From the NCBI RefSeq assembly GCF_000226255.1, contig NZ_AGFG01000035.1, positions 1 to 64,000 on the forward strand: a stretch of DNA of 64,000 nt, given 5' to 3'. The notes below the pieces were generated by a model that worked only from the letters and a program-made list of their open reading frames with translations, was not told where the DNA came from and searched no databases. Positions 28,683 to 46,151 of the stretch are shown here, one piece after another; the stretch's first letter is position 1; each line of letters opens with the position of its first letter. Origin of the DNA: Desulfovibrio sp. A2. GTDB lineage: Bacteria > Desulfobacterota > Desulfovibrionia > Desulfovibrionales > Desulfovibrionaceae. A program made the position numbers and the translations under genes.

Positions 28683-28769
28683 GGCCGGTCTGATAGCAGG
28701 TGTGAATCCTGATTAAAAAACACATGGATATAAAACAAACCACACGGTCAGAGCCACGCGAAAAAACAC

Positions 28770-30182
28770 CTACCCTAAAATAGCATCCACGTTTTCACCA
28801 AACGTGCGAAAGACAGCATCGCTGCGAGACGAAAAGTCCTCTGGCGTGATTTGCCCGTTGCGAAACTCATGCGTCATATGAACGAATACCTCATCCATTG
28901 CCTCAAGGCGCAATGCATCAAATTTTTCCCATGCCTCCGCGATTTCAGGGTTATCGAATTCCCATCCGTAATCCTCCCAAGGAGCAACGCCCCGCCCGTC
29001 GCTATCTTGCTTCTGTCCTGCATCGCGCGAACCTTTGTACTTCTTGAGGCGAAACAGCATTTGCGTCTTTTCGTATCCAAAATTACGCAACATGGCATGA
29101 TCCTGACGCAACTGGGCAAGAGTGCTTTGGGGATGAAACATTATCATGCCCAGAATAGGACGAACTCCAAACTTTTCCAGCACCTCAATTGCCCGAATAT
29201 TCACGTGGCCACTGGTTTTCTTGCCAAACATCTTCAGGGTAGCATCGTCAAAAGATTCCACACCGACAAAACATCGCTGCAAACCTGCCCTGCACAGTGC
29301 TTCGATGACCTGTTCATCAACTGCATCCGCTCTGGCATCAATCTCCAGACTAACGTCCACGCCTAATTCTGCAATCCTGCGCGCTATTTCCAAGACCCTG
29401 CTCTTCTCGGAGGGCTGCCCCAGAAAGTCCGCGTCCATAAACCAGAAATCCCGTAAGCCATATGCCTCGACTACATGGCGCACCTCGTCCGCCACTGCTG
29501 TCGGAGATCTCAACCGCCGCACCGCAGCGCAACCGGCCATCCGCTGGCTAGCTGCAATACTGCAAAAACTGCACGAATGCGCGCAACCGCGGGATGACTC
29601 TATGGCAACCCTGTAGCATAGCCTTGGAAAACGCGTGAGATGTGACAACTGCTCATAACTGCGTCTCCCAAGCGCGGCAAACTCCAGACCAGGCTTGGGG
29701 TTTGTGTTCCGAATACCGTCACTTGTCCGCACTGCCACACCAGGAATGTCGCACCACATGGCACAATCAGCTCCCGCATTCGCCATGTACAAGAACGGAA
29801 TTTCCCCCTCGCCAAGAACAACACCGTGAAATGGTGTGTCCGCGCTTAAGAGATCATCGCAATGAAATGTAGCGTAGCTTCCGCCAGCAACAACCGCCGC
29901 ATGAGGATACAGCCGCCGCAGTTCGCGTGCAGATGCGAACACATCGTCAACGTTGCTGTAATTCACGGAATATCCGACAATATCAGGACGTTCCGCGGCG
30001 GCTCGACTTGCCAGACCCTCATCCGGCACGTCATGCAACAACGTATCCAGAATGCTGACATCATGCCCCCCTTCCGCCAACACGCCGGCCAGCGAAGCAA
30101 GCCCAAGATGATCTACCGCAGGAGAAGCAGGCGTTCCATCAACACCCTTCGCAATATGCGCCAATACGCACCTCACGACCAC
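28770..30182 (-). CDS. B12-binding-domain radical SAM protein (third in cluster)
   Basis: 470 residues with a GTG start; a GTG two codons on (30176), five bases after GGAGG, is an equally good choice. N-terminal cobalamin-binding fold: HLGLASLAGVLAEGGHDVSI, PDIVGYSVNY, VVAGGSYATF and VVLGEGE. The radical SAM barrel carries SSRGCAHSCSFCS (CX3CX2C near residues 197-204) and CFVGVESFDDATLKMFGKKT. Such enzymes do methylations and ring or C-C chemistry. Last gene of the minus-strand operon, overlapping the M19-like gene by 10 nt. GC is well below the core genes. Confidence 0.88.
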   Translation of the reverse strand: MVVRCVLAHIAKGVDGTPASPAVDHLGLASLAGVLAEGGHDVSILDTLLHDVPDEGLASRAAAERPDIVGYSVNYSNVDDVFASARELRRLYPHAAVVAGGSYATFHCDDLLSADTPFHGVVLGEGEIPFLYMANAGADCAMWCDIPGVAVRTSDGIRNTNPKPGLEFAALGRRSYEQLSHLTRFPRLCYRVAIESSRGCAHSCSFCSIAASQRMAGCAAVRRLRSPTAVADEVRHVVEAYGLRDFWFMDADFLGQPSEKSRVLEIARRIAELGVDVSLEIDARADAVDEQVIEALCRAGLQRCFVGVESFDDATLKMFGKKTSGHVNIRAIEVLEKFGVRPILGMIMFHPQSTLAQLRQDHAMLRNFGYEKTQMLFRLKKYKGSRDAGQKQDSDGRGVAPWEDYGWEFDNPEIAEAWEKFDALRLEAMDEVFVHMTHEFRNGQITPEDFSSRSDAVFRTFGENVDAILG

Positions 30183-31069
30183 CTCCCCTCAAAAAGCGCG
30201 TGCCAAACGTTTACCCAGAACACTCCCTCAACTTCATCTGTCGACATTCCGCGCAGACGCAAAATTTCAAAAAGAGCCTTCAGGCCAGACGCTTCCGCCA
30301 TTCCTTCGACAATGCCGACGCCCAATCCCGCCATACTTGATTCCGCAAAATAATCTGGCCCCAGGCAGACACGCTCAACACCTACAACATCCGCAAGGTG
30401 CAGGATATGCATTGCCACATCATCCACACGCACGCCTGCCGCCGCGCCGCCTCCTCCATCCGCAAAGCCAACCAGGTCGTCGACAAAAGGCACGCCGAAC
30501 AATTCTGCTCCACACGACACCAGTTCGGCATCACTCATCGCATTTGCCCGCCGGGCGATGTTCTTTTGCAGCAAAGCTTCGCAAACAATATGAGAAGCTA
30601 TCTTCCTGCACGGGGATTCGCCTAACACATGTTGCAAGAGTGCTCCGTGCAAATGACTGATATCAAGAAAAATATCTGCTTCGGCCATGGCCCGCAACAA
30701 AACACGCCCATCACCGCTTACGCCAGAAAATGCTGATATGTAACGACACTCTGCCATCTGATGATACAACTGAACAGCCTGTAACCCCGCGTTTCTCAAG
30801 TCTACCAAACGCCCCGGATCACCGAAATCAGGCACGCCTTCTGCAGAAAAAAGCATCGGGAGGCCTTGCATATCGGCGGGCCGCAACGCTTCAGAATGCT
30901 CCAGATAAAACATCAAACCGGAGAAAGGATCATTTGCATCGCACGGCACTCCAAACATCTTCTCCAAAACCTGTGGTCGCCACTCGGCAGAAAGCACCAT
31001 TCCCTTCAGGGGGGTGCGCCATATTGCATCCGGGATACAATGCAAATGCACAGGCAACCACCCTCTCAT
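30173..31069 (-). CDS. M19 membrane-dipeptidase-like metallohydrolase
   Basis: 298 residues from ATG 31069, which overlaps the upstream stop as ATGA; a GTG at 31111 would add 14 residues. The renal-dipeptidase barrel is recognisable: LFSAEG (metal Glu), GVSGDGR, DISHLH and IASHIVCEAL (two metal His), and VGVERVCLGPDYF (acidic catalytic residue). It ends RGMSTDEVEGVFWVNVWHALFEG, the usual last helix. The first ligand pair, normally H-x-D, reads H-L-H here. No signal peptide, so cytoplasmic. In gliotoxin synthesis an M19 enzyme (GliJ) trims peptide-thiol adducts; a similar trimming step on the Cys-rich precursor is my inference. Confidence 0.8.
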   Translation of the reverse strand: MRGWLPVHLHCIPDAIWRTPLKGMVLSAEWRPQVLEKMFGVPCDANDPFSGLMFYLEHSEALRPADMQGLPMLFSAEGVPDFGDPGRLVDLRNAGLQAVQLYHQMAECRYISAFSGVSGDGRVLLRAMAEADIFLDISHLHGALLQHVLGESPCRKIASHIVCEALLQKNIARRANAMSDAELVSCGAELFGVPFVDDLVGFADGGGGAAAGVRVDDVAMHILHLADVVGVERVCLGPDYFAESSMAGLGVGIVEGMAEASGLKALFEILRLRGMSTDEVEGVFWVNVWHALFEGRWS

Positions 31070-32445
31070 GCTCCCATCTCTCCTGACCGCTCCAGGCCTT
31101 GAAGAACGCACTCCATATGCCGCAAATCCGCCTCACACCCCCCGCTTGAGCTGACTCCCAACGAACACAGTACTTTCAACGCTTCAATGCACCATTCTGT
31201 ACGCACCTGCACATCGTCGTTCCCCCGCCCTGTATGCCATAGCCGCCACGGTGCCACCTCTGGATACACTATGCCCAATTCCGCACGCCTGGCCCACAGC
31301 AAACTACCCTGGGGAATGCACAGGGGGTTTACCGCCACACAGGAAATCCGCCTACCCAATCTTGCAATAGCTTCAAGATCACTCTGAAACTGTTCTCTCG
31401 CTTGCAGCGGCGGCCCGGCGACGATAAGGCCCATGGAAACGCGCACCCCGACATCACTCAAACACTCAACAGCGTCCCGGGCTTTTCCGGCGACAGATGT
31501 CTTGCCGAGCACCTTCAAGAATTCCGCATTGAAGGATTCCACTCCCAGAAACACATCAGAGCATCCTGAAGCCTTCAGTTGCGCTGCGATCTCCTTATCT
31601 ATCCCCTTGCACTGCAACATCCCGTCCCATGTAACATCACACGTCTTCAAAGCATCAACAATCTGAAGCATCCTTTGCGGCGTAGGATTCAATACTGAAT
31701 CACTGAATGTTACATGCCTCGCACTCCCACTGCATGCCGAGACATCCTGCGCAACACGCCATGCAGACTTCATCCGGTAATGCCCCCACATCTGGGCATC
31801 ATCACAAAATGCGCATCTGTTCACGCAGCCTCGTGACGTTTCCTGGGGAACCACCCCGCGGCGCGCGTACAACCCCGCAGGAAATCCCGCATAATCCGGA
31901 CTTGGCGCATCATCCAGCATGATCAGACGATGTTCATATACCTTGGAAGGAAGCCCCTTATTCCGCAGTACGTCGGAAACCCATTCACATATGGCCACAT
32001 CGCCTTCACCACGGCAAATGCTTACCCCTTCGCGCAGCGGAAACGCTGCGACCTCTTCCTCGTAAAAGAAGCCTGCCCCCCCGATGAGTATCGGCAACAC
32101 GGGAAACCTTGCCCGCACAGCATCAATCACTGCACTGGCAAACGCCCTTCCCGCACTGGCAGCGGACAGCGCCACCCCATCCGGAGACAGCGCAGCTATG
32201 GCGTCGCAAACATGCAATGCAACCTGCGACACCCAGCCCGCATACGAATCCACCGCCCCCCAGGATGACCACCCCGCACCGCTCCAACGCCATTTTTCAG
32301 TTTTGCACTGGGCATACAGCTCGACGTTGCAGTCTTTTATCACACATTCATGCCCGGCTCCACGCAATGCGCCAGCAAGCACTGCCGCCCCCAAGGGGGG
32401 ACAATCCGGGGCGACAGGCGGCAATACTGCAAGCAGCACTTTCAT
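31066..32445 (-). CDS. B12-binding-domain radical SAM protein (second in cluster)
   Basis: 459 residues. Start MKVLLAVLPPVAPDCPPLGA at 32445, one base after the UvrA-like stop. N-terminal cobalamin-type Rossmann region (LGAAVLAGALRGAGHECVIKD, GVALSAAS, ILIGGAG, CRGEGD), then PQETSRGCVNRCAFCDD with CX3CX2C. The barrel motif DVFLGVESFNAEFLKVLGKT is nearly the same wording as in the third enzyme, so the two are likely paralogues. Several extra Cys occur in the C-terminal third. Overlaps the M19-like gene by 4 nt. Confidence 0.88.
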   Translation of the reverse strand: MKVLLAVLPPVAPDCPPLGAAVLAGALRGAGHECVIKDCNVELYAQCKTEKWRWSGAGWSSWGAVDSYAGWVSQVALHVCDAIAALSPDGVALSAASAGRAFASAVIDAVRARFPVLPILIGGAGFFYEEEVAAFPLREGVSICRGEGDVAICEWVSDVLRNKGLPSKVYEHRLIMLDDAPSPDYAGFPAGLYARRGVVPQETSRGCVNRCAFCDDAQMWGHYRMKSAWRVAQDVSACSGSARHVTFSDSVLNPTPQRMLQIVDALKTCDVTWDGMLQCKGIDKEIAAQLKASGCSDVFLGVESFNAEFLKVLGKTSVAGKARDAVECLSDVGVRVSMGLIVAGPPLQAREQFQSDLEAIARLGRRISCVAVNPLCIPQGSLLWARRAELGIVYPEVAPWRLWHTGRGNDDVQVRTEWCIEALKVLCSLGVSSSGGCEADLRHMECVLQGLERSGEMGA

Positions 32446-32446
32446 C

Positions 32447-34582
32447 TCAACACGCAAAAACCTCTGCCCAAAGCGTTTTTGGACAGGCAGACGGCGGCCC
32501 AGCATACTTGATCGCAACGGCACGAGAACCGCTGCCATGCTCGACGGGAGCCCCCAAAACAATCAACCAATCCGCCATTTGCGCCAGCGCCGGGTCGTTT
32601 TCTGCCACCAGCACGGTGTGTTTTTCGGCAAGACCCCAGAGCGTTTGCGACAGTAGCCCGGTCGCCCCTGCGCCGATCCCCCTGCACGGATTATCCAGCA
32701 CATACAGCGACCGATCCCCCAACCGCTTGGACAGCACGTCAACAATCTTGACGCGCAGATTCTCTCCACCGCTCAAACTGTTGGAGGGCTGCCCCAAAAC
32801 AAGATATTCCAGGGCAACCCCCATAAAATGCTCAAACCTGTCTCCAAATGCTGCATCACCGTGAAAGTGGCGGGCGGCCTGACGCATGGTCAGGCAGTTC
32901 ACATCGGCGACAGACAGCCCCTTGTGCTTCGGGGCAAGAACCGCATCCTTGAAGCGTGTTCCGTGGCAACGGGGGCATTCTTCATAATGCACGTCATCCC
33001 GCGTCAGGTATCCGCGTCCGTGGCACTGCGGGCATTGCCCTGCCTTTCCGTTGAAACTGAAGTGTGACTTGCTGAACTTCCGTCGCCGGGATTCCGGCAA
33101 CGTCGCGTAAAAATCCCTTACCTTGTCCCATAGTCCTGTATACGTGGCTGGCGTGCTGCCAGCATGCACCCCTATGGGGTCGGGACTAACCTTGTGCGGA
33201 CGGCGAACGGCGTCATGCCCCTTGCGCTCATCCAGGCTGGTTCTTCCCTGCCAGGCAATCGGCGTCTTGTCGCAGGCGGCGTATGCGGCCTCGATATAGG
33301 CCGTTTTGCCAGAGCCGCTGGGGCCGCACACGCATGTTAAACGCTGTAGCGGCACAGCCACCGCAAAACCCGCAAACCCGTACCAGTCCGAAAACTGCGC
33401 GTGCAGTACATACTGTGCGTCCCCCTTGCGCCTTGCAGGGCGGGACTTGCCGGAAAGCGCCGCCGCAGAGGGCCGGGCAGGCGGCCCCTGCCCCACGATA
33501 CGCCCGCCCTCGGCCCCGGCGCCGGGGCCAAATTCCGTCACCACATCTGCGGCCTCGATCAATTCGCGCCGATGCTCAACGGCGATGACCGTATGCCCCT
33601 TTTGCTGCACCGCGCGCAGCACCTTTGCCATCTGCCGGGCTTCACAACCTGTCATCCCTGCCGCAGGTTCATCAAAGATGACCAGCGCATCGGCTGGAAT
33701 TTCTCGCAGCACCGCGAAAAAACGCAACTTCCTTGCCATGGCAGAGCTTTGCTGAAACATCGGCGCACGCACTGGCACATCGCCAAGACCAAGCAGCGAA
33801 AGCCATTCTCCATCCAGAGAAGAAGGCCACGTCACCTGCTTCAGTGCCAGCCCTGCGGCCAGCATTTCCGGCGTTGCGGCAAACCCCCAGCCATCGCATT
33901 TCTTGCAACGCGGATACGATGTATAATACGGCAATTCCTGCGCCAAATCCCCGGCGGCAGTTCCTTTGAGCAAGCTCCGAAGACTGGGAACAACGGGCCT
34001 GACCGGGGGAACACCTGCAAACAACAGTCTTTCTTGCATGCCAGGCGGCAGCCGCTTCCAGGCCAAATCGTGCTGAACGCCCGCCTCTGCACAAATCTTT
34101 CTCCAGCGGGCAGCATCCAACCCAACGCATTTCTTCACTGCGGGGCTGAATGCGCCTGCCGTGACGGACCCTTCCGCATTACGGACAACCCGGGCAGGAT
34201 CGATATCCCGCAGGTACCCCTTGCCCGCGCAAGCAGGGCAAGACGGCACCGCCCTGCCCTGCGACCTGAAAATCTGCGGCACCCCCACATGGACACCGAC
34301 GCTCTCTATAAGGGACCTGTGCGTAAGCTGCTGCTCTATGCCCACCACAAAGTGCGGCAACCCCTCTACCCTGTACTGGGGCCGCGACTTGCGGAACACC
34401 TTGGAAAGGCCACGCGCGCAGCCTTTGGCGTCTGCCGCAGCGTACAACACATCAAAGGCCAACGACGACTTGCCGCTTCCGCTGGGCCCGCTGAACACGT
34501 GCAACTTGCCCTGCTCGAACGAAACCTGCTCTATCCGCAAGTTATTCACAGTGACATCGTACAACTGGATCAACTGCGTCAC
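32447..34582 (-). CDS. UvrA-like ABC ATPase, stand-alone paralogue
   Basis: 711 residues (true UvrA is about 940); GTG start, 12 nt after the previous gene. Two ABC halves. N-half: Walker A GPSGSGKSSLAF, Walker B ALVIFDEPAAGM, but the signature is degraded to SSAMARKLRF. C-half: Walker A GPSGSGKTAYIE, intact signature SLSGGENLRVKI, but Walker B reads VLDNPCRGI with Asn for the catalytic Glu. So one composite ATP site (N-half Walker A/B with C-half signature) looks active and the other dead. UvrA-type zinc modules remain (CPACAGKGY/CKKCDGWGF; CPQCHGRGY/CPRCHGTRF). The UvrB-binding insert seems reduced. Class II UvrA relatives such as DrrC confer resistance in drug clusters. Confidence 0.88.
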   Translation of the reverse strand: MTQLIQLYDVTVNNLRIEQVSFEQGKLHVFSGPSGSGKSSLAFDVLYAAADAKGCARGLSKVFRKSRPQYRVEGLPHFVVGIEQQLTHRSLIESVGVHVGVPQIFRSQGRAVPSCPACAGKGYLRDIDPARVVRNAEGSVTAGAFSPAVKKCVGLDAARWRKICAEAGVQHDLAWKRLPPGMQERLLFAGVPPVRPVVPSLRSLLKGTAAGDLAQELPYYTSYPRCKKCDGWGFAATPEMLAAGLALKQVTWPSSLDGEWLSLLGLGDVPVRAPMFQQSSAMARKLRFFAVLREIPADALVIFDEPAAGMTGCEARQMAKVLRAVQQKGHTVIAVEHRRELIEAADVVTEFGPGAGAEGGRIVGQGPPARPSAAALSGKSRPARRKGDAQYVLHAQFSDWYGFAGFAVAVPLQRLTCVCGPSGSGKTAYIEAAYAACDKTPIAWQGRTSLDERKGHDAVRRPHKVSPDPIGVHAGSTPATYTGLWDKVRDFYATLPESRRRKFSKSHFSFNGKAGQCPQCHGRGYLTRDDVHYEECPRCHGTRFKDAVLAPKHKGLSVADVNCLTMRQAARHFHGDAAFGDRFEHFMGVALEYLVLGQPSNSLSGGENLRVKIVDVLSKRLGDRSLYVLDNPCRGIGAGATGLLSQTLWGLAEKHTVLVAENDPALAQMADWLIVLGAPVEHGSGSRAVAIKYAGPPSACPKTLWAEVFAC

Positions 34583-34594
34583 GACAGCACCCCT

Positions 34595-36223
34595 TCAATC
34601 CGCAAATGACAGGCTGTATCGTTCGGAAAGCAATATGCTGTCCGCCATGGTCGGAAAGCACTTTATCTGCTTTTTCCGGGTATAGAACCGCTCTTCGATA
34701 TCCTTGTCATCCACACCACCCTCACCGCGCTGCCGGTACTCCGGGTGAGACCAGAAATCCGGGGCAGCGGTTCTGGCAATGTCATCAGGGTCTGCTGCAC
34801 GCGCAATCGGCGATTCTTCATACAGCGCAAATTCCGAAAAATTGAACCCGTCTATATTGCGCAGGTTTTCAAACAGAAAATCGACGGTTTGGCGCACGTC
34901 TGCGACCTGCTCGCCGGGAAAGCCGTGCATGAGGTACACATGAACCCCCATGCCCGCTTCCGCAACACTTCGCAGCACGCGACCGGCCATTTCTGCGGTC
35001 GTCCCCTTGCACATTCCCCGCAACACCGCATCAGAGGCGCTTTCCAGCCCAAACCGCAAGAACCTGCACCCCCCGGAATACAACTGGCTTGCCACGGTTG
35101 GATCTGCCAACCTTCTGGAAATCCTGCTGTTCCCTCCCCAGCGCAGGTTGGCCTGCCTGCTTTGCAGCGCGCCTGCCAGGCCCACCATGAACGCCGCGGG
35201 CAGTTCAGCATCCAGAAAATACACGCCGTCAGCCCCGTAGGTAACGGCAAGCGCGTGCAGGTCTTCGGCAACAAGTTCAGGATTGCCGTCCAGCCTGTCT
35301 GCATGAAAATGGTAGCGTGCATCGGCGCAAAAGGCACATTTGCGCCACTGACAGCGTGAAAAGACCCGGTACGGAAGCACCCTGCCCGCAGCCCGGTAAT
35401 CGCCTAGCGGAAAGGCATCAAAATTCGGACGCCGCGCCTGTTCCTGCGCAACGCCGGATGCAATCCAGCAACCGTTGGACAGCACGCGCGCGCCGGGAAG
35501 GGACACGCGCCCGCGCACCTTTTCAAGCGATGTGACCAGGGATTCGCCCGCCCCCAGCATGGCGCCGTCGGCACTGTGCCAGATGGGGGTCTGTTCCGTA
35601 AGCTGCTGCGCGAACGCATTCAGCAGCCCCCCACCCCAGATCACCGTAACGCCTTCTTCGCGCAGCCGTTGGCCCAACACCAACGCGGCGGGCAACTGCC
35701 CGTCAAAGTTGACGGACAACCCCACCCAATCCGGCTGATGCCGCAATATGCCCTGCACCACGGAACCCGCAGCCACCCACTGCCGCCAGACGCCGTCCGG
35801 TTCCAGCGCCGTGGCGGCCACCCTGCGCAAATCAGGCCATTCCCCGTGATACGTCACCTGGTACGGGGCAAACCCATACCGGGGAAACGCCTTGCCAAGC
35901 AGGCGCAGCATTTGCTGCTGCTGCCGGTATCCTGTCAGATATTGCGAGGCATTGTGGGCATGAGCGGGCAGAAATGGCGCAAACGAACCGCTGTGGCCCC
36001 AGCGCCCGCTTTCGATGAAACGCAGAAAATCCAGATTCGCGTCCACAACAGCATGCGGCGCGCCCTGCTCGGCAAGGGCCGCCGAAAGCAGGCCCACGCC
36101 CAGCATCGGAACGGATGGATCCTGAAAAGGCAGGGAAACGAGAACGCACCGCAACGCCGCGTGGGTGCGCTGCCGTAATGTCACCCCGGCAGCATTGATG
36201 GGGTGGGGGGGGCGCCTGATCAT
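34595..36223 (-). CDS. B12-binding-domain radical SAM protein (first in cluster)
   Basis: 542 residues from ATG 36223; the ribosome site is poor and the exact start is open. N-terminal cobalamin-type domain from VLVSLPFQDPSVPMLGVGLL through VGLSVNFDGQ and VIWGGGLLNAF. Cluster motif CQWRKCAFC, a CX4CX2C spacing seen in a subset of these enzymes instead of CX3CX2C. Then GVYFLDAELP and CRFLRFGLESASDAVLRGM in the barrel, and HGFPGEQ. It lies 71 nt after the PqqD-like gene and 12 nt before the UvrA-like gene. Chemistry cannot be predicted. Confidence 0.85.
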   Translation of the reverse strand: MIRRPPHPINAAGVTLRQRTHAALRCVLVSLPFQDPSVPMLGVGLLSAALAEQGAPHAVVDANLDFLRFIESGRWGHSGSFAPFLPAHAHNASQYLTGYRQQQQMLRLLGKAFPRYGFAPYQVTYHGEWPDLRRVAATALEPDGVWRQWVAAGSVVQGILRHQPDWVGLSVNFDGQLPAALVLGQRLREEGVTVIWGGGLLNAFAQQLTEQTPIWHSADGAMLGAGESLVTSLEKVRGRVSLPGARVLSNGCWIASGVAQEQARRPNFDAFPLGDYRAAGRVLPYRVFSRCQWRKCAFCADARYHFHADRLDGNPELVAEDLHALAVTYGADGVYFLDAELPAAFMVGLAGALQSRQANLRWGGNSRISRRLADPTVASQLYSGGCRFLRFGLESASDAVLRGMCKGTTAEMAGRVLRSVAEAGMGVHVYLMHGFPGEQVADVRQTVDFLFENLRNIDGFNFSEFALYEESPIARAADPDDIARTAAPDFWSHPEYRQRGEGGVDDKDIEERFYTRKKQIKCFPTMADSILLSERYSLSFAD

Positions 36224-36294
36224 GCGACTGGATAGCAGCGCATACAGGCAGAGGCAAGGGGAGCCTGCCGGACGGGAATACGCAGGACAGGCAC

Positions 36295-36573
36295 CTAGCG
36301 TGCCACGGTGACGCACCCCGCCTTCAGGCAGAAACGCACGAATTCGGGCAACATCTGCCGGACAGCGTCGTCCTCGTATTCTTCAAGCAGCAAGGCTTCG
36401 ATTTCGCGCACCGTACGCTTGCCGTCGAACAATTCCCATACGGCTGCCGCGTCCTCGTTCAGGTTGAGGATCGGCATGTTGCCGCCCGCCAGCATCACGC
36501 CGAACGCCTCGCGGCGCATCATGGTCCCCGGTGCGGGCACGGGAACGGCTTCGTACAGTTCGTTGTCGTCCAT
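36295..36573 (-). CDS. PqqD-family RiPP recognition element
   Basis: 92 residues from ATG 36573. The PqqD core is clear: PILNLNEDAAAVWELFDGKRTV then REIEALLLEEYEDD and a final helix ending CLKAGCVTVAR. PqqD proteins hold the leader of a precursor peptide and present it to a radical SAM maturase. It lies 10 nt after the second SPASM enzyme in the same operon, the standard arrangement. This gene is the strongest hint that the cluster processes a ribosomal peptide. Confidence 0.92.
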   Translation of the reverse strand: MDDNELYEAVPVPAPGTMMRREAFGVMLAGGNMPILNLNEDAAAVWELFDGKRTVREIEALLLEEYEDDAVRQMLPEFVRFCLKAGCVTVAR

Positions 36574-36583
36574 AAGGCATCCT

Positions 36584-37573
36584 TTACCCGAGGAGCACGT
36601 CCTCTGCATCGATTTCGTTGGCCCTGGCAAACGCGGCCGCACGGCACCCGCCGCCGCAGTCTTCCAGCATCGGGCACGCACGGCATTTTTCCGGCAGATG
36701 GGCCAGCGTCCGGTACCGGGCGTACAGATCGGCCCCGTGCAGCACGTCGCACAGCGGGGTTTCCAGCAGATTGCCCAGCACGTGCCGCCCCATGCCGCAC
36801 ACCATCACCTGCCCCTGCACGTCGATGTAGAACTTGTCATGCCCGAAAGAACACCTGTTGCACAGGTGCTGCAAATCTTGCGGCAACTGGCAGGCAGGGG
36901 CCGAATTGGCCAGCAGCAACGCAATGCCGCGGCTGTCCGTCGCCTCCACCAGCACCCGCAAGGCGCTGATGAACGCATCCGCCCCCAGTTGCAACGGCTT
37001 GTCCTTGCCAAGGCCCGTGGGGATAAACCGGGTGATGGTCATTTCTTCGCAACCGGTGGCGGCCAGGATGTCCACCGTTTCACGCAGCACGTCTGGCCGG
37101 GCGTTGCGGCTGTTCAGCACCAGATTGCTGGCCGCGCGAATACCGGCGCGCACGGCATGTTCCAGGGCAGCGCGGGTTTCGGCAAACGAGCCGGGCCTTC
37201 CGACCAGGGCGTCATGCACGGCTTCTGGCCCATGCAGCGAAAAATTCACGCAGAACACCGCATTCTGGCGCAGCACATCAAGTGCCTGGGCAGTTGCGAA
37301 CAGGGTGCCGTTGCTTTGCACCATGACCCTGGCGAACAGGCTGCCTGCAAGCTTCAGCAAAGCCGGAAACCGCGAATGCAGCGCGGGTTCCCCCCCGGTA
37401 AAGATCAGCTCCATCACCCCGGCATCGGCAAGGCGATGCAGAATGCCTTCCGGGTCTCTGCTTTCACGCGGGGCGCAGGAATTGTAACAGAACGCGCAAC
37501 GCAAGTTGCACGCTTCCGTCAGTTCCACCTCCACACGGGTGACGGGCAGGGGAAAGAACGCAGGCGCGGGCAT
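36584..37573 (-). CDS. Radical SAM/SPASM peptide maturase (second)
   Basis: 329 residues. Radical SAM motif TEACNLRCAFCYN (CX3CX2C, residues about 20-27), MELIFTGGEPALH for SAM binding, and a C-terminal SPASM domain: HLCNRCSFGHDKF, QGQVMVCGMG, LPEKCRACPMLEDCGGGCRAA. The SPASM cysteines would hold two auxiliary 4Fe-4S clusters, as in sactipeptide and PQQ-type maturases. Its ATG overlaps the stop of the first SPASM gene by one base (TAATG), so translation is coupled. Followed by pqqD. Confidence 0.92.
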   Translation of the reverse strand: MPAPAFFPLPVTRVEVELTEACNLRCAFCYNSCAPRESRDPEGILHRLADAGVMELIFTGGEPALHSRFPALLKLAGSLFARVMVQSNGTLFATAQALDVLRQNAVFCVNFSLHGPEAVHDALVGRPGSFAETRAALEHAVRAGIRAASNLVLNSRNARPDVLRETVDILAATGCEEMTITRFIPTGLGKDKPLQLGADAFISALRVLVEATDSRGIALLLANSAPACQLPQDLQHLCNRCSFGHDKFYIDVQGQVMVCGMGRHVLGNLLETPLCDVLHGADLYARYRTLAHLPEKCRACPMLEDCGGGCRAAAFARANEIDAEDVLLG

Positions 37574-38583
37574 TACGCCCCCCACTTGAACGTGCCGGGG
37601 GTATGCCCGCAGGCATGCAGGCAATCGTCGTAAAAAACGCAGCCGCCCCGGCAGCTTTCCAGTTCTTCGCACTCGCGGCAGTTGGCGGGCAGGTGCTGCA
37701 CCTGTTCATACCGCTTCCAGGCCGTGTTGCCCCACAGGGCGGCAAAGGGGGTATCCAGCACGTTGCCTATCACGTTGTCGGAAAGGGGGCAGGGGGTCAT
37801 CAGCCCTTGCGGCGATATGCGGCACAGGCCGTACCCCACCTGGCACGGCGTATTCCACTGGCGCAGCCGGTCGCGGTATTCGTCCGGCAATTCGCAATAC
37901 GGCACGGGGCCGGGCAGCTTTACTTCTGCATACGTTGGCAGATCGCGCTTGATGCGGTCCAGCGAGTCAAGCACCGATATGGTTTCGGGGACGCCAAGCA
38001 CGTGTTCGCTGCCTGCGCTGCTGACCATGATGTACCGGGTAACGCAAAACACATGCACGCCCGGCTCGGCCATTACCCGCGCAATATCGTAGAGTTCTGC
38101 GTAATTGCCCTTGAAGGTGCAGACGTTTATCTCCACCTTCATGCCGCGCTCAAGCACCCGCCGCACGCCCTGGCGCATTCTGCCGAACGCGCCGAAGCTG
38201 CCCACAAGTTCATCATGGCGCTGCTCGGCAGCAGCAAGCACAGAGGTACACAGGCTGGGAAAGCACTGCGCCAACTGGTCGGCAACCTGATCGCTGATGA
38301 GCGTGCCGTTGGTGTTCAGATGAATATCGAACCCCAGGGCCTTGGCATGCCGCGCGATATCAAAGAAATCCGGGCGGGTAAGGGGTTCGCCGCCATTGAA
38401 ATTGATGGAAAACACCCCCGCTTCACGCATCTGGTCCAGCAGGTGCTTGCACTGGTCCGTGGACAACTGCCCGCCGTCGGCGCGCATGGCGTCATTATAA
38501 CAAAAGAAGCACCGATGGTTGCACGCATCGGTGAGTTCAAACTGCACGTAGAAGGGAGCACTGGGCCGTGTGATTGCTGGCAT
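37573..38583 (-). CDS. Radical SAM/SPASM peptide maturase (first)
   Basis: 336 residues. Radical SAM motif TDACNHRCFFCYND (CX3CX2C), FSINFNGGEPLTRPDF, then a SPASM region with CQVGYGLCRISPQGLMTPC and LPANCRECEELESCRGGCVFY, followed by extra Cys in DDCLHACGH. It resembles the second maturase throughout, so they likely arose by duplication and may modify different positions of the same peptide. First enzyme gene of the operon, 77 nt after the precursor, just beyond an attenuator-like terminator. Ribosome site is weak (GCCTC...). Confidence 0.92.
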   Translation of the reverse strand: MPAITRPSAPFYVQFELTDACNHRCFFCYNDAMRADGGQLSTDQCKHLLDQMREAGVFSINFNGGEPLTRPDFFDIARHAKALGFDIHLNTNGTLISDQVADQLAQCFPSLCTSVLAAAEQRHDELVGSFGAFGRMRQGVRRVLERGMKVEINVCTFKGNYAELYDIARVMAEPGVHVFCVTRYIMVSSAGSEHVLGVPETISVLDSLDRIKRDLPTYAEVKLPGPVPYCELPDEYRDRLRQWNTPCQVGYGLCRISPQGLMTPCPLSDNVIGNVLDTPFAALWGNTAWKRYEQVQHLPANCRECEELESCRGGCVFYDDCLHACGHTPGTFKWGA

Positions 38584-38613
38584 TGAGGCGGGGGGATTGA
38601 TAGAAAATGCTAT

Positions 38614-38651
38614 AAAAAAAGCAAGGGCAGGCCAAGCCTACCCCCACTTGC
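38614..38651 (-). terminator. Attenuator-like terminator after the precursor gene
   Basis: Read on the minus strand, an imperfect stem (GCAAG pairs with CTTGC; an inner GGTAGG pairs with CCTGCC, loop CTTGG) is followed at once by TTTTTTT. It lies in the 77-nt gap between the precursor stop and the first maturase start. Partial termination here would give much more precursor than enzyme, as in many RiPP operons. Confidence 0.7.
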
Positions 38652-38660
38652 CGTGCCAGC

Positions 38661-38822
38661 CTAGCGGCAGGCGGTGCATGCGGTACATGCGCAGCAGGCG
38701 ACTGCCTTTTCCGCGTCCGTGCTCACGACAGTCCGACTCGGGGTGCTGAAGGGCTGCTTGAACGCGCTGAACACTTCCACGCGGGGAGCAAACGGCTTCT
38801 TACGCTTGGCACCGGTAGCCAT
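38661..38822 (-). CDS. Putative RiPP precursor peptide with Cys-rich C-terminus
   Basis: 53 residues, too short for routine gene calling, translated by hand. Starts MATGAKRKKPFAPRVEVF, with an AAGGGG ribosome site 8 nt upstream. The N-terminal ~40 residues are basic and hydrophobic/aromatic, as expected of a leader (FSAFKQPFSTPSR in the middle). The last residues read AVACCACTACTACR: five Cys at 43, 44, 46, 49 and 52 separated by Ala/Thr. That regular C-x2-C-x2-C tail is a plausible core for thioether or other radical SAM chemistry. First gene of the operon with two SPASM enzymes and a PqqD. No family name is known to me. Confidence 0.8.
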   Translation of the reverse strand: MATGAKRKKPFAPRVEVFSAFKQPFSTPSRTVVSTDAEKAVACCACTACTACR

Positions 38823-39094
38823 ATCGAAAACCCCTTGAAATACATGGCGTTTATCTTTTCTGCCCGCAGGTGCCGGGCATTCCTCAACCTATTACCGTTC
38901 GCTCATACCTGCCGTGCGCTGAAAAGTAAACCCCGACCCGGCCCGCGCCTGGGGGGCGCTGCCGCGCGACCAGCTTACGCAATCTGAACCTGCACACCGG
39001 ATATCGTGATATTGCCAAAATATCCATCTGCATATAACCATTGCGCACACCCAGGAACGCACCAACCACGCGCCGTTCGGGCGCAGGTGACACC
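38823..39094. promoter_or_regulatory. Divergent promoter region between the RiPP-like and RADAR operons
   Basis: 272 bp. For the precursor (minus): TTTACT at 38930-38925 and TATGAG at 38907-38902, 17-bp spacer, giving a leader of about 70 nt that includes a 6-bp hairpin (38861-38866 with 38874-38879). For rdrA (plus): TTGCCA at 39012-39017 and TATAAC at 39033-39038 with a short 15-bp spacer. The rdrA ATG at 39095 follows AGGTGA. Confidence 0.4.
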
Positions 39095-41698
39095 ATGAGC
39101 ACTGACAAAGAAAATAATGCGCAAGCCGAGTCCAACAGCTGGATCATCATTGCCCCCAAGGCAAGCCGCACCGCTGCCGCCTACGAAGACAAGAACCTCA
39201 TCCAGCAATCTGCGCTCAGGGATGTCGTCGAATTCGTCAGAGATACGCGATCCCATATTCAAAAATTCAAGAATGAACTGCAATCTTGCAATTCACATAC
39301 GTTTCGGTCGCGCTTTCACGACACTATACTTATTGATGGCGAGCGCGGCACGGGAAAAACATCGTTTCTCCTCAGTGCAGTAAACCATTTATGCAGCACT
39401 GGTGACCCATCTTCTCCTCCCGAACGGAACAAAAACGCTCCCATCAGCCTGGGCATCATTGACCCCACACTTATTTCCACCAAGGAAAACATCTTCATCC
39501 TGGTTATTTCCAGAATCAAACAATATGTAGATGATAATCATGACAAAAACATTTCTCACGAATGCGACGGCAAATACCAGGACTGGAACGAGCAACTAAC
39601 CAAGCTGTCACGCGGACTGTGCATGCAGGACGGCATAGGAACCGATGCCCTCTTGCACGAGAAGTGGGAAGATGCCAACTACATCATGCAGGAAGGCCTG
39701 AATAACGCGCAAAGCGGACTCGACCTCGAACGCAATTTCCATAAATTCATATACAAGTCCCTCGATATACTTAGTAAAGACTGTTTCATTCTCTGCTTTG
39801 ACGATACGGATACAGATTTCAGCAAAGGATGGCCTGTTCTCGAACTTCTCCGCAAGTATTTTACAACTCCCCAACTGATCACCTTACTCTCCGGCGACTA
39901 TGCCTTGTACGCAAAGCTTGTGCGCATCAACCAATGGAAACTTTTCAAAGATCACCAGCATGCCATATACCACTATGGCACGAAGAACATCAAAGAAACT
40001 ATAGAATCCTTAGAATCCCAGTATCTCACAAAAATACTCCCTCCAAACCGCCGCATACTACTCAAAAATGCCTGGGAACTTCTTGATCACCTGCGCGTAA
40101 AAGACCCTACGCGACCGGATGCAGAGCCAATACGCATTGACAACCTTTTTGAATCCTTTACGGCTCTATGGTATCGCTACCCCACTTCTGTGTGCAGAAA
40201 AATCGGCGACCTCTTCACACACCTTCCCATGCGCAACATTATACATATACTGCACGTTATAAGCAGCGCTAAAACAAAAACCAAGACTACATATAACGCT
40301 CAAGCAAAAGACGAGACTACAGATGGTGCTCAGCAGATCATAGAAAAGCAAACATATGAATATGCCCGCAGCATCCAAGACCACAGGAAAAAACTAGAGC
40401 ATGGAGAACCATCAACTCAGCCCAGCATCCCACCGCTAAACAATGAAGATGCCATCCTTGCTGTGCATTCAAACATGATTCTTATTTACTACAACAACCT
40501 CATCAACCTCGGCTTTGCCCAATATGAATTGAATGCCATTCAATGGACAGGGTCGTTTTATAGACTATCTGAAATACTCAACGAAAAAAGACTCATAAAA
40601 AATGGGGCAAGCCTGCTACCGGCAAACGTCATGCCGCAAGACGGCTTGGACATCCTCCTGCTCTCCGGCATATACACATCGGCGATTCTTGGCGACATTC
40701 GCCTTATATTCGACTACTATATTCGGGTACTTCTGGTACGAGACATCCTGGCCCCAACCAACGGCAAAGACTCCCCAACCGAGGACGACTTTCAATACAA
40801 ACAACTTTTTTCATCTGAAAAATCGTTACTCGACATCACAACAACAATAACAAATATCTGCATCACAGAAGGCGGTAAACATGCCACTTTAAAAAATATG
40901 CTAGTAGATATCACCACTGCCACAAACGAACAGCCCTCCAGCCAAGGCCGTGTATATATCAAAAAACTACTACACAATTACACAACACATGTACATTACG
41001 ATGCAAACGGGAAACGCATTGTTTACTTTTCCCCATTCAACGCCATAGCACTCCTTGCGCTCTGTGTTGGATCCACAGGCGACTTCAGATTTGAACTTGA
41101 AAGATACACAAAACCACATACAACTCATCCAACATACCCCGTAGACACCAAAGACAGCTCTCCGGTCGGCACGCCGGAAGGCGCTCCGGAAGGCGCTCCG
41201 GAAGGCGCTCCGGAAGGCGCTCCGGAAGGCGCCGGAACCACCATCCGGAATGACACCTCAGTGTGTAGCAGCGATGAATCTGATTTCTTCAACAAACTTT
41301 CTGATAAGATACATGAATCAGCTTTAAAATACCATAATGGCACACTCAAAAAGATACCGTTACTACTTCCTCTTTACGTCCACCATGATATATGGACAGA
41401 TTTCATTCAAAATTTAAATATACAATGCGGCTCTGAAATCGACACCACCGAACTATTAAAGAAGACATACAAAGCCTTCACAGATTCCATAGAAAAAATC
41501 GAAAATAGATATAGCAGCCAAAGAACAGCAGAGACACTTCTTGCAGGTTTCATCAAGGAGAACACACCGACAGCACACATCGACGCCCTAGACGAGCCAT
41601 CCACCTTGCAGGCGTCGCAAGCCGACCAAGGTAACCAAGGCGAACAGAATGGCCAGGACGTGCAAGCAAATACAGAGAACAACACCACCCCTAGCTAA
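39095..41698 (+). CDS. rdrA: RADAR system ATPase RdrA
   Basis: 867 residues, the usual size. P-loop GERGTGKTS at residues 82-90 and Walker B CFILCFDDTDTDF with Asp236-Asp237. The rest is mainly helical with no other known domain. RdrA is the large AAA+-like ATPase that assembles with RdrB; RADAR limits phage by deaminating adenosine nucleotides or RNA in infected cells. Near residues 690-715 a 12-bp tandem repeat encodes (PEGA)n. The C-terminus is acidic and Gln-rich. GC is far lower than in the core genes, a mark of transfer. The ATG at 39095 has an AGGTGA site. rdrB starts 2 nt after the stop. Confidence 0.9.
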   Translation: MSTDKENNAQAESNSWIIIAPKASRTAAAYEDKNLIQQSALRDVVEFVRDTRSHIQKFKNELQSCNSHTFRSRFHDTILIDGERGTGKTSFLLSAVNHLCSTGDPSSPPERNKNAPISLGIIDPTLISTKENIFILVISRIKQYVDDNHDKNISHECDGKYQDWNEQLTKLSRGLCMQDGIGTDALLHEKWEDANYIMQEGLNNAQSGLDLERNFHKFIYKSLDILSKDCFILCFDDTDTDFSKGWPVLELLRKYFTTPQLITLLSGDYALYAKLVRINQWKLFKDHQHAIYHYGTKNIKETIESLESQYLTKILPPNRRILLKNAWELLDHLRVKDPTRPDAEPIRIDNLFESFTALWYRYPTSVCRKIGDLFTHLPMRNIIHILHVISSAKTKTKTTYNAQAKDETTDGAQQIIEKQTYEYARSIQDHRKKLEHGEPSTQPSIPPLNNEDAILAVHSNMILIYYNNLINLGFAQYELNAIQWTGSFYRLSEILNEKRLIKNGASLLPANVMPQDGLDILLLSGIYTSAILGDIRLIFDYYIRVLLVRDILAPTNGKDSPTEDDFQYKQLFSSEKSLLDITTTITNICITEGGKHATLKNMLVDITTATNEQPSSQGRVYIKKLLHNYTTHVHYDANGKRIVYFSPFNAIALLALCVGSTGDFRFELERYTKPHTTHPTYPVDTKDSSPVGTPEGAPEGAPEGAPEGAPEGAGTTIRNDTSVCSSDESDFFNKLSDKIHESALKYHNGTLKKIPLLLPLYVHHDIWTDFIQNLNIQCGSEIDTTELLKKTYKAFTDSIEKIENRYSSQRTAETLLAGFIKENTPTAHIDALDEPSTLQASQADQGNQGEQNGQDVQANTENNTTPS
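41174..41233 (+). repeat. 12-bp tandem repeat inside rdrA
   Basis: Five head-to-tail copies of CCGGAAGGCGCT (the last ends CC), in frame, encoding Pro-Glu-Gly-Ala repeats. The copies are almost identical at DNA level while the surrounding gene is AT-richer, which points to recent slippage-driven expansion. Copy-number change keeps the frame. Confidence 0.95.
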
Positions 41699-41700
41699 CC

Positions 41701-44415
41701 ATGCTCACAACCTCATTATTCAACAACCACCTCTTGCTCCACAGGCTCTCAAGGGGGGATAATACACCTAATTTTCGGGAGATTATCGAGAACATCCATT
41801 TCACCACTGCCCGCAACGGCCACAGCAAACTCCCCGACCATCTGATCAAGAACTGGATGGCCAGAGCCAACGCCGAGGGCAAAACCGACCTTGCCCAATT
41901 GATTGCGAATCACCTTGATCATCTGGTGGAACACACGCTGGCCATGGACGGAGAGGATATCTTTGTCCAGAGCAGACACTTCGAGCTATGGCAAGAAATC
42001 ATAGGCGAAACGTCTCCCCTGCTGCTGCTTGCGTGGAAGATCAGCAAGGACACACCGCACATCCGGTCACGCGATGCACATGTCGAGCAATTGATACACC
42101 GGAACATTCAGCCGCATGTGTTCCCCGGCCTGCACGCCCCCCTGCTTGAAGAACGGTTGCGTCGCATGGGTCTGTGCGACCTGCACATACACCTGAACGG
42201 CAGCACACCCAGTGATGTCGTATGGCTGGACGCCCTGGCATCTCCCCGCAAGTTTCGGGCACGCATGGCGCATGAGCACCGCCACAGCCGCAAGGAAATA
42301 GAAGAACTTCTCCTGCAAACCTGCCCGCTTTTCGACTGGCGGGACCTGTGCTCGCTTATCGATATCGCAGCAGGCCTGCGCGACTGGCTGGTACGCAGAC
42401 TGTTTGCTTCCACCATCTCACCCGTCTGGATTCCCTCTGGCGAACAAGAGCCCGCCTGCCTCCCCCACTGCCACCTCCACACCCCGGACGCTTGTGGAAA
42501 ACGCGAACATCAGCTGCACTGCTCGCGCTACCGCTGGTGGGGCAGGCTGCACCACGACATGCACCTTTCTCGCTACACCTTTACCGGCGTCTCCAGACAA
42601 CAACTGCGCATCCACCCCCTGCAAAAGTACTTTCCCTCACGCGCGTCCCGCTTCCCCAGAAACCTGCTCCATCAGGAAGCCTGCTTCCTTGTTCATGCGC
42701 TCACCGAACTCCGCACAAGACGCGATGACAGGGTGGCAACATTCCTGTTCTACTACCTGTCCATACAGAGCCTGTTTACGCGGCTGCTCGTACAGCAGGC
42801 CGACCAATACGGGTTTGACCAATTCCAGAAGATAACCCTTACAGGGCTGCGCGAAGAGGTAGAGAGCTCCTATCCTGCCAGGATGATCCAGTTTGCAGCC
42901 TCATCCACCGGTCACGAAATACATGTGGAAGGGCGGTTTGCGCCAAAATCAAATTTTATAGCCTTGCATACATTGCTGCGAAAAATAAACAGGGGCGATA
43001 TTGCCCCCGTCGCCTTCCGTGCGCCCGGCAGACACCCATCGCCCCGGCATCCTGCTTCCGCAACCCCACCCAACGTCACGCTATCCCTGGTGGCACACCT
43101 GATCAAACAGAAAGACGAAAAGACGCACAGAGGAGCCCAACACTACAGGCTCAGACGTGCCCTGCAAAAGCAGGTGCGCCACCTGCTCAACTACATCAAC
43201 CACCCCCAGAACCAAAAACATCTCGCCCAGATCGTGGGCTTTGACGCTGCCTCGAATGAACTGCACACCCCGCCGGAAGTCTTTGCCCCGGCCTTCCGCC
43301 AATTACGCCGCGGGGGCCAACGCAATTTCACCTTTCATGTCGGCGAAGACTTTCAGCACCTTGCCAGCGGCATTCGGGCCGTGCATGAGGCCATCACCTT
43401 TCTTGACCTGGGCGCCGGCAACCGCATTGGTCACGGCACTGCTGTCGGCATCGCCCCCAAACTCTGGAGGCAGCGCGTAGGGCCTTCCATCTGCCTGTTG
43501 CGCGCAGAATGGCTGGACACGCTGGTATATGCCCACCAGACCCTTTCGGGCAGCGCGTGCTATTCCGACATACGCAGTGTCGTGGAAGGAGACATCCACC
43601 AGCACTCGCGCGCCGTATACGGCAGGCCGCTGACGCCGGAAACGCTGTGGCAAGCATGGCTGCTGCGCAAGCTGGACCCCATTCGCTGCTTTATCGACAA
43701 GGACAAGACCCAGTGCCTGTCCCTGAAGGAACGGGAAGAGGAATGGGGCATGATCGAACGCCACAGACCAGCGCCCCGCAGCACAACACCGAATGACGCC
43801 CACAGCTCTTACGACGACCCGTACCAGGTATTTGCGGAGTACCACCAGAAGCACGTTTTTGCGGCATACAACCCCCAAGCGGGCACTTCTGCCCGCGACA
43901 AAAAGAACGGGGCAAAGCCGAACGGGCGATATGTCGACGTGGCGACCGACTACTTCACGGATGAAGCCCTTGCGTACATGCAGATCCGGGTCCTGAAAGA
44001 GATTGTCGACCGCAAGATCGCCATTGAATCGATGATCACAAGCAACGTGCGCATCAGCTTCTATCAAGGGTACGACGAGCACCACATACTCCGCTGGCTT
44101 GGGCTGGACCCCAACTTTACCGACGAACCCCACCCCACCGTCTGTCTGGGCACGGACGACCCCGGCATTTTCGCCACCACAATGAAGAACGAATGCCTGC
44201 ACCTGCTCGGCATGCTGACCCGGCGCGGCAAATCAGAGGCGAAAGCCGTGGACATCATCGCCCGGCTTGTAGAAAACTCGCACGCGTACAGCTTCAAAAT
44301 CGCCCCCCCAGCAGGGCATGACCGATCCTGCAACGGCGCGGGGCAATCCCCTTCGACAGACGGGACGCGAATGACCGCCAACCGCGCATGCCGGACAAGA
44401 AACCGGGACTGGTAG
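41701..44415 (+). CDS. rdrB: RADAR system adenosine deaminase RdrB
   Basis: 904 residues. Adenosine-deaminase motifs are spread along the chain: metal ligands HIH at 162-164 (CDLHIHLNGS), catalytic HVGED at 546-550 (H-x-G-E), metal His in GHGTA (578), and TDDPG at 818-822. So the active site is intact despite large family-specific inserts. RdrB forms a shell that RdrA joins; the pair has been described as editing RNA or converting ATP/dATP to ITP/dITP on infection. No ribosome site: it starts 2 nt after the rdrA stop, so translation is coupled. No third accessory gene (csx27- or SLATT-like) follows. Confidence 0.9.
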   Translation: MLTTSLFNNHLLLHRLSRGDNTPNFREIIENIHFTTARNGHSKLPDHLIKNWMARANAEGKTDLAQLIANHLDHLVEHTLAMDGEDIFVQSRHFELWQEIIGETSPLLLLAWKISKDTPHIRSRDAHVEQLIHRNIQPHVFPGLHAPLLEERLRRMGLCDLHIHLNGSTPSDVVWLDALASPRKFRARMAHEHRHSRKEIEELLLQTCPLFDWRDLCSLIDIAAGLRDWLVRRLFASTISPVWIPSGEQEPACLPHCHLHTPDACGKREHQLHCSRYRWWGRLHHDMHLSRYTFTGVSRQQLRIHPLQKYFPSRASRFPRNLLHQEACFLVHALTELRTRRDDRVATFLFYYLSIQSLFTRLLVQQADQYGFDQFQKITLTGLREEVESSYPARMIQFAASSTGHEIHVEGRFAPKSNFIALHTLLRKINRGDIAPVAFRAPGRHPSPRHPASATPPNVTLSLVAHLIKQKDEKTHRGAQHYRLRRALQKQVRHLLNYINHPQNQKHLAQIVGFDAASNELHTPPEVFAPAFRQLRRGGQRNFTFHVGEDFQHLASGIRAVHEAITFLDLGAGNRIGHGTAVGIAPKLWRQRVGPSICLLRAEWLDTLVYAHQTLSGSACYSDIRSVVEGDIHQHSRAVYGRPLTPETLWQAWLLRKLDPIRCFIDKDKTQCLSLKEREEEWGMIERHRPAPRSTTPNDAHSSYDDPYQVFAEYHQKHVFAAYNPQAGTSARDKKNGAKPNGRYVDVATDYFTDEALAYMQIRVLKEIVDRKIAIESMITSNVRISFYQGYDEHHILRWLGLDPNFTDEPHPTVCLGTDDPGIFATTMKNECLHLLGMLTRRGKSEAKAVDIIARLVENSHAYSFKIAPPAGHDRSCNGAGQSPSTDGTRMTANRACRTRNRDW

Positions 44416-44453
44416 CAAAGCCAGGCACGGACGGGCAAGACACATTCCCAGCA

Positions 44454-44520
44454 ACGCAAAAAAGGGCGAGGCATTGTTACCTCGCCCTTCGTGCATTCGA
44501 TGGCGGAGCGGAAGGAACTC
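44454..44520. repeat. Duplicated tRNA-Asp 3' end with its terminator (att-like remnant)
   Basis: This 67-bp segment repeats, with few changes, the sequence at 46031-46094. It contains a hairpin (44462-44471 with 44480-44489; followed on the minus strand by TTTTTT) and then, at 44501-44520, the last 20 nt of a tRNA-Asp gene including CCA with one mismatch. The match stops inside the T-arm. It looks like the far boundary of an insertion at the tRNA 3' end. The hairpin now also serves as a terminator for the minus-strand qorB. Confidence 0.75.
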
Positions 44521-44569
44521 TCATTATGGAGAGGCGACCACCCCGGCCTCAGGGGCTTCCGAAAAAGCG

Positions 44570-45427
<858 letters not shown>

Positions 45428-45982: not shown

Positions 45983-46038
45983 ACCGAGAGGCAGATCAGG
46001 TTCCGTCCCCCTCCCCGGATGCCGCCCACAACGCAGAA

Positions 46039-46074: not shown

Positions 46075-46151
<77 letters not shown>

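Follow-up and report, generated by a model that had tools for sequence, protein, structure and literature searches.

The 64,000-nucleotide stretch of Desulfovibrio sp. A2 DNA analysed here (the window; contig NZ_AGFG01000035.1, positions 1 to 64,000) contains a run of nine open reading frames (ORFs) on the minus strand, 28770-38822, without internal stops. They encode a short precursor peptide, five radical S-adenosylmethionine (SAM) enzymes, two of them with SPASM domains (SP1 and SP2) and three B12-type (B12a, B12b and B12c), a PqqD-like protein, a UvrA-like ATPase and an M19-like dipeptidase. We are highly confident that this operon represents a maturation family for a ribosomally synthesized and post-translationally modified peptide (RiPP), one that we found under no name, because the precursor gene adjoins SP1, SP2 and PqqD in all four loci where we have the cluster, and because of silent codon changes in the core, coincidences of contig size and the tracking of tail type with SP1 type. 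As to its role, we put at roughly one half the probability that the operon is new and mobile and makes a RiPP directed, within the producer's own cell, against phages or other invasive elements. These odds come mainly from the insert that the operon shares with a RADAR (restriction by an adenosine deaminase acting on RNA) gene pair, and from a BREX (bacteriophage exclusion) operon adjacent to one of its relatives.

A profile of B12a, run against genome contigs, led to two loci, one in a Spirochaetia metagenome-assembled genome (MAG; L012) and one in a Thermincola ferriacetica MAG (L013). Both contain relatives of all nine window genes, with B12c at the opposite end of the cluster in Thermincola. 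The fourth cluster (L027), which is divergent, came from a tail-pattern search of 348 genomes of the Thermincola phylum and was the only new cluster that the sampled genomes yielded. Its precursor tail is ACCACTACTACSACK, and it has SP1, SP2, PqqD, B12a-like, UvrA-like (32% identity; the other values are in Table 1) and M19 genes, in addition to a SAM methyltransferase and a further radical SAM/SPASM protein, with no match to B12b or B12c. The precursor, SP1, SP2, PqqD, B12a, the UvrA-like protein and M19 are common to all four clusters. Because the genes and the precursor tail recur in L012, L013 and L027 (the last without B12b and B12c), the window operon is not a chance arrangement. The preliminary description of this DNA had proposed a RiPP-type maturation operon, and the precursor, UvrA-like and M19 genes found in every cluster agree with it. 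It had also named SPASM/PqqD pairs lacking a similar Cys-rich peptide as a sign that the proposal was wrong; such a peptide accompanies the pair in 4/4 loci, three of which were found through B12a or precursor queries, so that the four are a biased sample of SPASM/PqqD pairs. In two clusters an extra protein is encoded between PqqD and B12a (525 aa, L012:2577-4154; 451 aa, L013:8686-10041); in the window and in L027 none was seen. The two versions have no Pfam match and share 19% identity (E 9e-8), and the predicted model is poor (mean predicted local distance difference test score, pLDDT, 47.7). As for carriage by viruses, the CACTACTAC pattern had four matches in the viral contigs (viral_contigs), none of them with a precursor in an open frame, and scans of the viral contigs with the B12a and SP1 profiles gave no match. 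There was no SP1 match on plasmids at 1e-30, and the B12a query found only distant radical SAM proteins (26-30% identity) in plasmids and phages.

Judging from the alignment, the precursor is of the leader-core type with a near-invariant ACCAC(TAC)n tail. Searching with a profile of three precursors (E <= 10) returned 80 homologues, 78 of them at 1.3e-5 or better, and the resulting alignment has 83 rows, 82 of which are distinct (the L012 precursor is the same as P0026). The tail is exactly ACCACTACTACR in 60 rows, ACCACTACTACTACG in eight, ACSACTACTACR in four and of another form in 11, one of which (P0096) lacks the tail, while P13, P24, F25 and A48 never vary. Four of the homologues (P0054, P0073, P0075, P0080) belong to proteins named from Patescibacteria. 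Between the window and the spirochaete, 8/12 core codons differ, all silently, which argues for purifying selection on the tail. Homologues of the precursor (80), SP1 (the best 120 of 147) and B12a (22) were also paired indirectly, by equal size of the longest contig and with a jitter control. This gave 16 precursor-SP1 coincidences against 0.5 expected, six precursor-B12a coincidences against 0.06 and five SP1-B12a coincidences against 0.09; the remaining 64 precursors had no coincidence among the best 120 of 147 SP1 homologues. Tail type and SP1 type correspond in these pairs: all 13 R/Q-tailed precursors go with an SP1 at 57-79% identity to the window SP1, and the three others go with an SP1 at 44-51%.

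The gene cluster is rare and moves horizontally. At E <= 1e-60, SP1 was found in 1/348 genomes of the window's class (its own genome only) and in 2/398 genomes of the phylum of L027, with the best 5-6 first-look candidates scored per genome. The tail pattern occurs in at least 1/395 genomes of the window's own phylum, at least 1/344 of the spirochaete phylum and at least 1/348 of the Thermincola phylum, and these counts are lower bounds because the pattern misses ACSACTACTACR tails (it missed Thermincola itself). Despite this rarity, the window and spirochaete SP1 proteins are 72% identical. Pairs of heme-type radical SAM proteins in relatives of the window's genome point to a Desulfovibrio-like sulphate reducer as the host.

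Comparison with same-genus sister genomes places the operon in a 15.9 kb insert (Table 1). The left flank is conserved in all seven sisters, and SP1 is absent at 1e-60 from all seven. Three of them (G005, G006, G007) have an empty site, in which the matches to 28700-28702 and 44564-44580 are ~140-200 bp apart. Two more lack the operon and have another arrangement, with 28702 followed by 46025 after 113 bp (G004) or by 46022 after ~1.2 kb (G003), and the contigs of G001 and G002 end before the site. G+C content drops from 0.68-0.70 in the sequence immediately to the left of the insert to 0.54-0.63 in the operon and 0.47 in RdrA. Besides possible small ORFs, only the operon and the RdrA/RdrB genes were recognised in the insert, which probably came as a single event. 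The two 400-base ends of the insert share no word of 9 bases or more, direct or inverted. The 3'-terminal 20 bases of tRNA-Asp (46075-46151) have a 19/20 match at 44501-44520, on the inner side of the insert's right edge; this may be the scar of an old tRNA-targeted mobile element. Given the other arrangement of this intergenic site in two of the sister genomes (L045, L047; 28702 followed by 46022-46025), it may be a hotspot.

Defence genes adjoin the cluster in all three loci for which both flanks could be read. In Thermincola, genes for BrxP, BrxC, PglZ and BrxL are found upstream on the same strand, 398 bp separating BrxL from B12c; this set resembles BREX type IV. A gene for a SIR2 protein comes 207 bp after M19. 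In the surroundings of the L027 cluster (L028), an AEP-TOTE primase gene (PF22548, 340 bits; PrimPol in PADLOC) is 1.3 kb from the precursor with a PLD protein gene between them, and there is also a Schlafen/AlbA_2 protein and a SoFic match ~11 kb away. The L012 sequence begins 65 bp before the precursor and has one readable flank, in which we saw no defence genes. In the window itself, the RADAR pair is divergent, with the PADLOC models covering part of each protein.

To put numbers on this, we collected flanking ORFs by a mechanical rule: they were closed, mostly non-overlapping, no shorter than 250 aa and no further than 10 kb from one of the four clusters. On one side of the Thermincola cluster the limit was 11 kb, which admits BrxP, and for L012 a single flank was used. 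At least 8/30 of these flank proteins match PADLOC at 1e-20 or better, four of the eight coming from one BREX operon. Ten stretches of the Thermincola and L027 genomes, together with the parts of the window beyond the insert, served as controls; of their 104 proteins, 4 to 9 match. The control families are mad3 (four members; its model is also matched by the UvrA-like protein), PD-Lambda-1 (two families, one member each) and IetA (three, one each). Six window proteins are in both the flank and the control sets, and we chose the control places ourselves, on two contigs and not at random. Given this overlap, the non-random controls and the non-independence of the BREX genes, we attach no P value to the excess.

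Pfam and NCBIfam scans agree with the preliminary description on nine minus-strand genes and their families. SP1 and SP2 match Radical_SAM and SPASM; PqqD matches PF05402 at 37.8 bits (cut-off 23.4) and is the one PqqD match in its whole genome. B12a, B12b and B12c all match Radical_SAM, and the B12-binding domain is above the cut-off in two of them and below it in B12a (23.9 bits against 32.1). The M19-like protein matches Peptidase_M19 at 65.7 bits (cut-off 26), and the UvrA-like protein scores 308 bits against TIGR00630, below the cut-off of 730. Among the matches listed, which for NCBIfam are the best 25 per protein, none of the operon proteins reaches an NCBIfam cut-off. We considered whether the radical SAM proteins could be those of the pyrroloquinoline quinone (PQQ), mycofactocin or GeoRSP systems and rejected this, as they fall below the NCBIfam equivalog cut-offs. 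The CX4CX2C motif of B12a is invariant in 23/23 rows (B12a and its 22 homologues), unlike the CX3CX2C of SP1, SP2, B12b and B12c. The first motif in peptidase family M19 is usually HxD. Here it is HxH in 4/4 copies, and H22xH24, E91, H153, H174, R188 and D253 (numbering of the 312-aa ORF) are invariant in all four, so that the E, H, H, R and D of what we take to be the ligand set of a binuclear metal site are kept; relatives of this protein in the PDB are distant.

The genes had also been described as tightly packed, which is true of 6/8 junctions, at 1-12 nt, and not of the other two, where there are gaps of 77 and 71 nt. From the precursor to B12c the junctions are +77, -1, +10, +71, +12, +1, -4 and -10 nt, with start codons of our choosing, and the SP2 start shares 1 nt with the SP1 stop. 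A hairpin between the precursor and the enzymes could fit a high precursor-to-enzyme ratio; two hairpins were found in the 701-base stretch against 0.9 expected in shuffles, and the second is inside SP1. The Kyte-Doolittle mean over 19 residues stays at or below 1.43 throughout the nine window proteins, which gives no hint of an exporter or other membrane protein; the preliminary description, too, had noted no exporter.

Table 1. Positions of the operon genes, the insert and the neighbouring RADAR genes in the window. Identities are to the clusters of the Spirochaetia MAG (L012), the T. ferriacetica MAG (L013) and L027.
Feature	Position	Strand	Details
Precursor peptide	38661..38822	-	53 aa; leader FxP[RK][IV]ExF..F..PF; core ACCACTACTACR; no Pfam/NCBIfam match
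Terminator-like hairpin, precursor-SP1 gap	38619..38649	-	consensus match only
SP1, radical SAM/SPASM	37573..38583	-	CX3CX2C; identity 72/55/47% to L012/L013/L027
SP2, radical SAM/SPASM	36584..37573	-	329 aa; identity 57/46/39% to L012/L013/L027
PqqD-like peptide chaperone	36295..36573	-	92 aa; identity 52/50/33% to L012/L013/L027
B12a, radical SAM	34595..36223	-	B12-binding-like N-terminus; CX4CX2C; identity 43/35/29% to L012/L013/L027; start codon uncertain
UvrA-like ABC ATPase	32447..34582	-	711 aa; no UvrB-binding domain; degenerate distal ATP site
B12b, B12-binding radical SAM	31066..32445	-	CX3CX2C; identity 39/34% to L012/L013; no match in L027
M19-like dipeptidase	30173..31069	-	identity 42/34/25% to L012/L013/L027; putative metal ligands kept except in the first motif, which is HxH
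B12c, B12-binding radical SAM	28770..30182	-	CX3CX2C; identity 50/36% to L012/L013; no match in L027
Insert	28703..44563	.	15.9 kb; absent from this site in sister genomes; edges accurate to some tens of bases
RdrA-like ATPase of RADAR	39041..41698	+	885 aa; PADLOC E 1.6e-31 over residues 47-361; no Pfam match; divergently transcribed from the operon
RdrB-like adenosine deaminase of RADAR	41701..44415	+	904 aa; PADLOC E 1.6e-29 over residues 497-831; A_deaminase E 6.3e-11

By its alignment the UvrA-like protein is without the UvrB-binding domain: it aligns to residues 9-109 and then 263-375 of 3pih with nothing between, although neither stretch is strong by itself (i-E 0.015 and 0.008). In this it differs from the UvrA of nucleotide excision repair. 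All four copies retain the two Walker A motifs, Walker B I (DE) and signature II (LSGGE). Signature I departs from LSGGE to varying degrees in the alignment of the four copies (QQSSA, LSTTE, LSGSE, MSLTL), and the glutamate of Walker B II is N, N, N or S. According to PMC10192343 (excerpts), ATP-binding domain II and signature I together make up the distal ATP site. The two changes thus concern one site, and the four sequences indicate that this distal composite site is degenerate in 4/4 copies, with one of the two sites intact. The predicted model of the protein has a mean pLDDT of 60.1. UvrA-like proteins give producers self-resistance to DNA-binding drugs (excerpts of PMC10192343 and PMC10413001), and by analogy the protein here may make the producer immune to a DNA-acting product of its own. 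Ecm16 binds DNA with the help of an insertion domain (excerpts of PMC10192343). The corresponding region is present in the window, L012 and L013 copies and missing in L027, which speaks against a DNA role for that last copy.

We can propose how these parts might work together. The five radical enzymes probably modify the Cys-rich tail: PqqD would hold the leader, SP1 and SP2 would form cross-links in the Cys/Thr/Ala tail (our guess is thioethers) or oxidise it, and the B12 enzymes would methylate or rearrange it. The M19 enzyme may then cleave peptide bonds beside modified residues, freeing or trimming the product, which would stay inside the cell since there is no exporter. The UvrA-like protein would most likely shield the host chromosome from a DNA-acting product or sense product-bound DNA, as Ecm16-type proteins do. 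In its fullest form, which is possible but on balance doubtful, the proposal is of a mobile chemical immune system with which bacteria of several phyla (Patescibacteria too, if the precursors named from them are functional) would use radical chemistry to turn a near-invariant (Thr-Ala-Cys)-repeat peptide into an intracellular DNA-acting anti-phage molecule, while a UvrA paralogue with one ATP site guards the host chromosome or triggers a response.

Several observations weigh against a role in defence. Location among defence genes and lack of an exporter go together in 3/3 loci with both flanks, but these are only three, and co-location is no proof, since islands also collect passengers. In the readable flank of L012 there is a MobA/MobL relaxase downstream, and no PADLOC family could be assigned there at 1e-20. 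The PADLOC excess over the controls is modest, and the control is small and non-random. The operon proteins themselves have only weak or superfamily matches in PADLOC 2.0.0 (pVip for SP1 and SP2, mad3/mad8 for the UvrA-like protein, PDC-M51A for B12b) and match no listed system. A weapon under selection by phages would not usually keep an unvarying core, and five oxygen-sensitive enzymes are costly for defence. Finally, as the L027 copy lacks the insertion domain, DNA self-immunity may not be general.

The preliminary description had leaned towards a cofactor or metallophore. On such an account the CxxCxxC-like tail would be matured by the radical SAM enzymes and trimmed by M19 into an intracellular peptide-derived cofactor or a metal- or Fe-S-binding peptide that serves a metabolic enzyme, with the UvrA-like ATPase perhaps as its carrier or loader. 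The missing exporter would suit this, SPASM/PqqD-type systems are able to make cofactors (PQQ and mycofactocin are precedents), and a tail that is near-invariant in 83 rows is expected of a cofactor more than of a diversifying toxin. However, a cluster found in 1/348 genomes of its class and 2/398 of another phylum, with no recurring client enzyme recognised beside the four copies and with RADAR, BREX or TOTE genes beside three of them, makes this rather unlikely in our view. The earlier leaning is unsupported because of the rarity of the operon, the insert it shares with RADAR and the defence genes beside the other two loci with both flanks.

Self-resistance of producers to DNA-binding drugs through UvrA-like proteins (excerpts of PMC10192343 and PMC10413001), with the UvrB-binding domain missing in the operon protein too, would fit a bacteriocin-like antibiotic against competing bacteria, the UvrA-like protein being the producer's immunity and the islands merely collecting mobile conflict genes. 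We consider this unlikely, given that none of the nine window genes encodes a membrane protein, that none was recognised by eye in the three other clusters and that the core does not diversify. More improbable still is a passenger or selfish biosynthetic module on mobile islands, with no defence role and only coincidentally adjacent to RADAR and BREX. The small number of loci (three), the relaxase beside the spirochaete copy and, at the insert's right edge in the window, a remnant that resembles the 3' end of tRNA-Asp would all be compatible with a passenger, but the sister comparison gives an insert in which only the operon and RADAR are recognised, and the PADLOC rate in the flanks is above the controls, if modestly.

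Most work on radical SAM RiPPs concerns antibiotics and cofactors, and most work on bacterial immunity concerns proteins and nucleotides. If the product does act in defence, it would be a radical-SAM-made immune effector of fixed structure across phyla, and a near-fixed RiPP moving between phyla beside RADAR, BREX or TOTE would add a chemical arm to bacterial immunity. The operon would supply five radical enzymes to study on one short substrate, a UvrA paralogue with half-degenerate ATP sites would be a testable immunity device, and further members can readily be sought by their precursor tail. In the open-licence literature, judged largely by title and the start of the abstract, we found no publication that describes a RiPP set of PqqD, a UvrA-like protein and radical SAM enzymes, with or without the dipeptidase.

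Among known systems, the SPASM families of GeoRSP, PQQ, mycofactocin and NirJ/Ahb have the Radical SAM/SPASM fold in common with the operon enzymes, and PQQ also has a PqqD partner. Their precursors and partners are other than those of the operon, and the operon enzymes are far below all their curated cut-offs (SP1, for example, at 118 of 265 bits for the mycofactocin maturase and 99.5 of 400 for GeoRSP). The best NCBIfam model for B12a among the matches listed is TIGR03975, of the RiPP B12 radical SAM C-methyltransferase type, at 74.9 bits; B12a misses the cut-off of 281.85 bits and differs in its CX4CX2C motif. Like the sactipeptides and ranthipeptides, the operon combines a SPASM radical SAM enzyme with a Cys-rich core. 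It is not a lanthipeptide cluster, as no Lan dehydratase or cyclase family is among the matches listed for the nine proteins. The Ecm16/DrrC self-resistance proteins (excerpts of PMC10192343) are likewise UvrA paralogues in biosynthetic clusters without a UvrB-binding domain, and the matches of the window protein include PDB 7sh1, the entry that this source assigns to Ecm16; the Ecm16 type has two competent ABC ATP sites per protomer, in contrast to the operon protein with its degenerate distal site in 4/4 copies. The nearest precedent for the proposed role is that of the anti-phage lanthipeptides of Streptomyces (excerpts of PMC12360287), which are likewise RiPP clusters located in defence islands with a product thought to be intracellular. 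Those use lanthionine chemistry, whereas the operon, known here from its genes alone, combines radical SAM/SPASM and B12 radical SAM enzymes with PqqD, a UvrA-like protein and an M19 dipeptidase, and occurs in other phyla with a precursor that has no family match.

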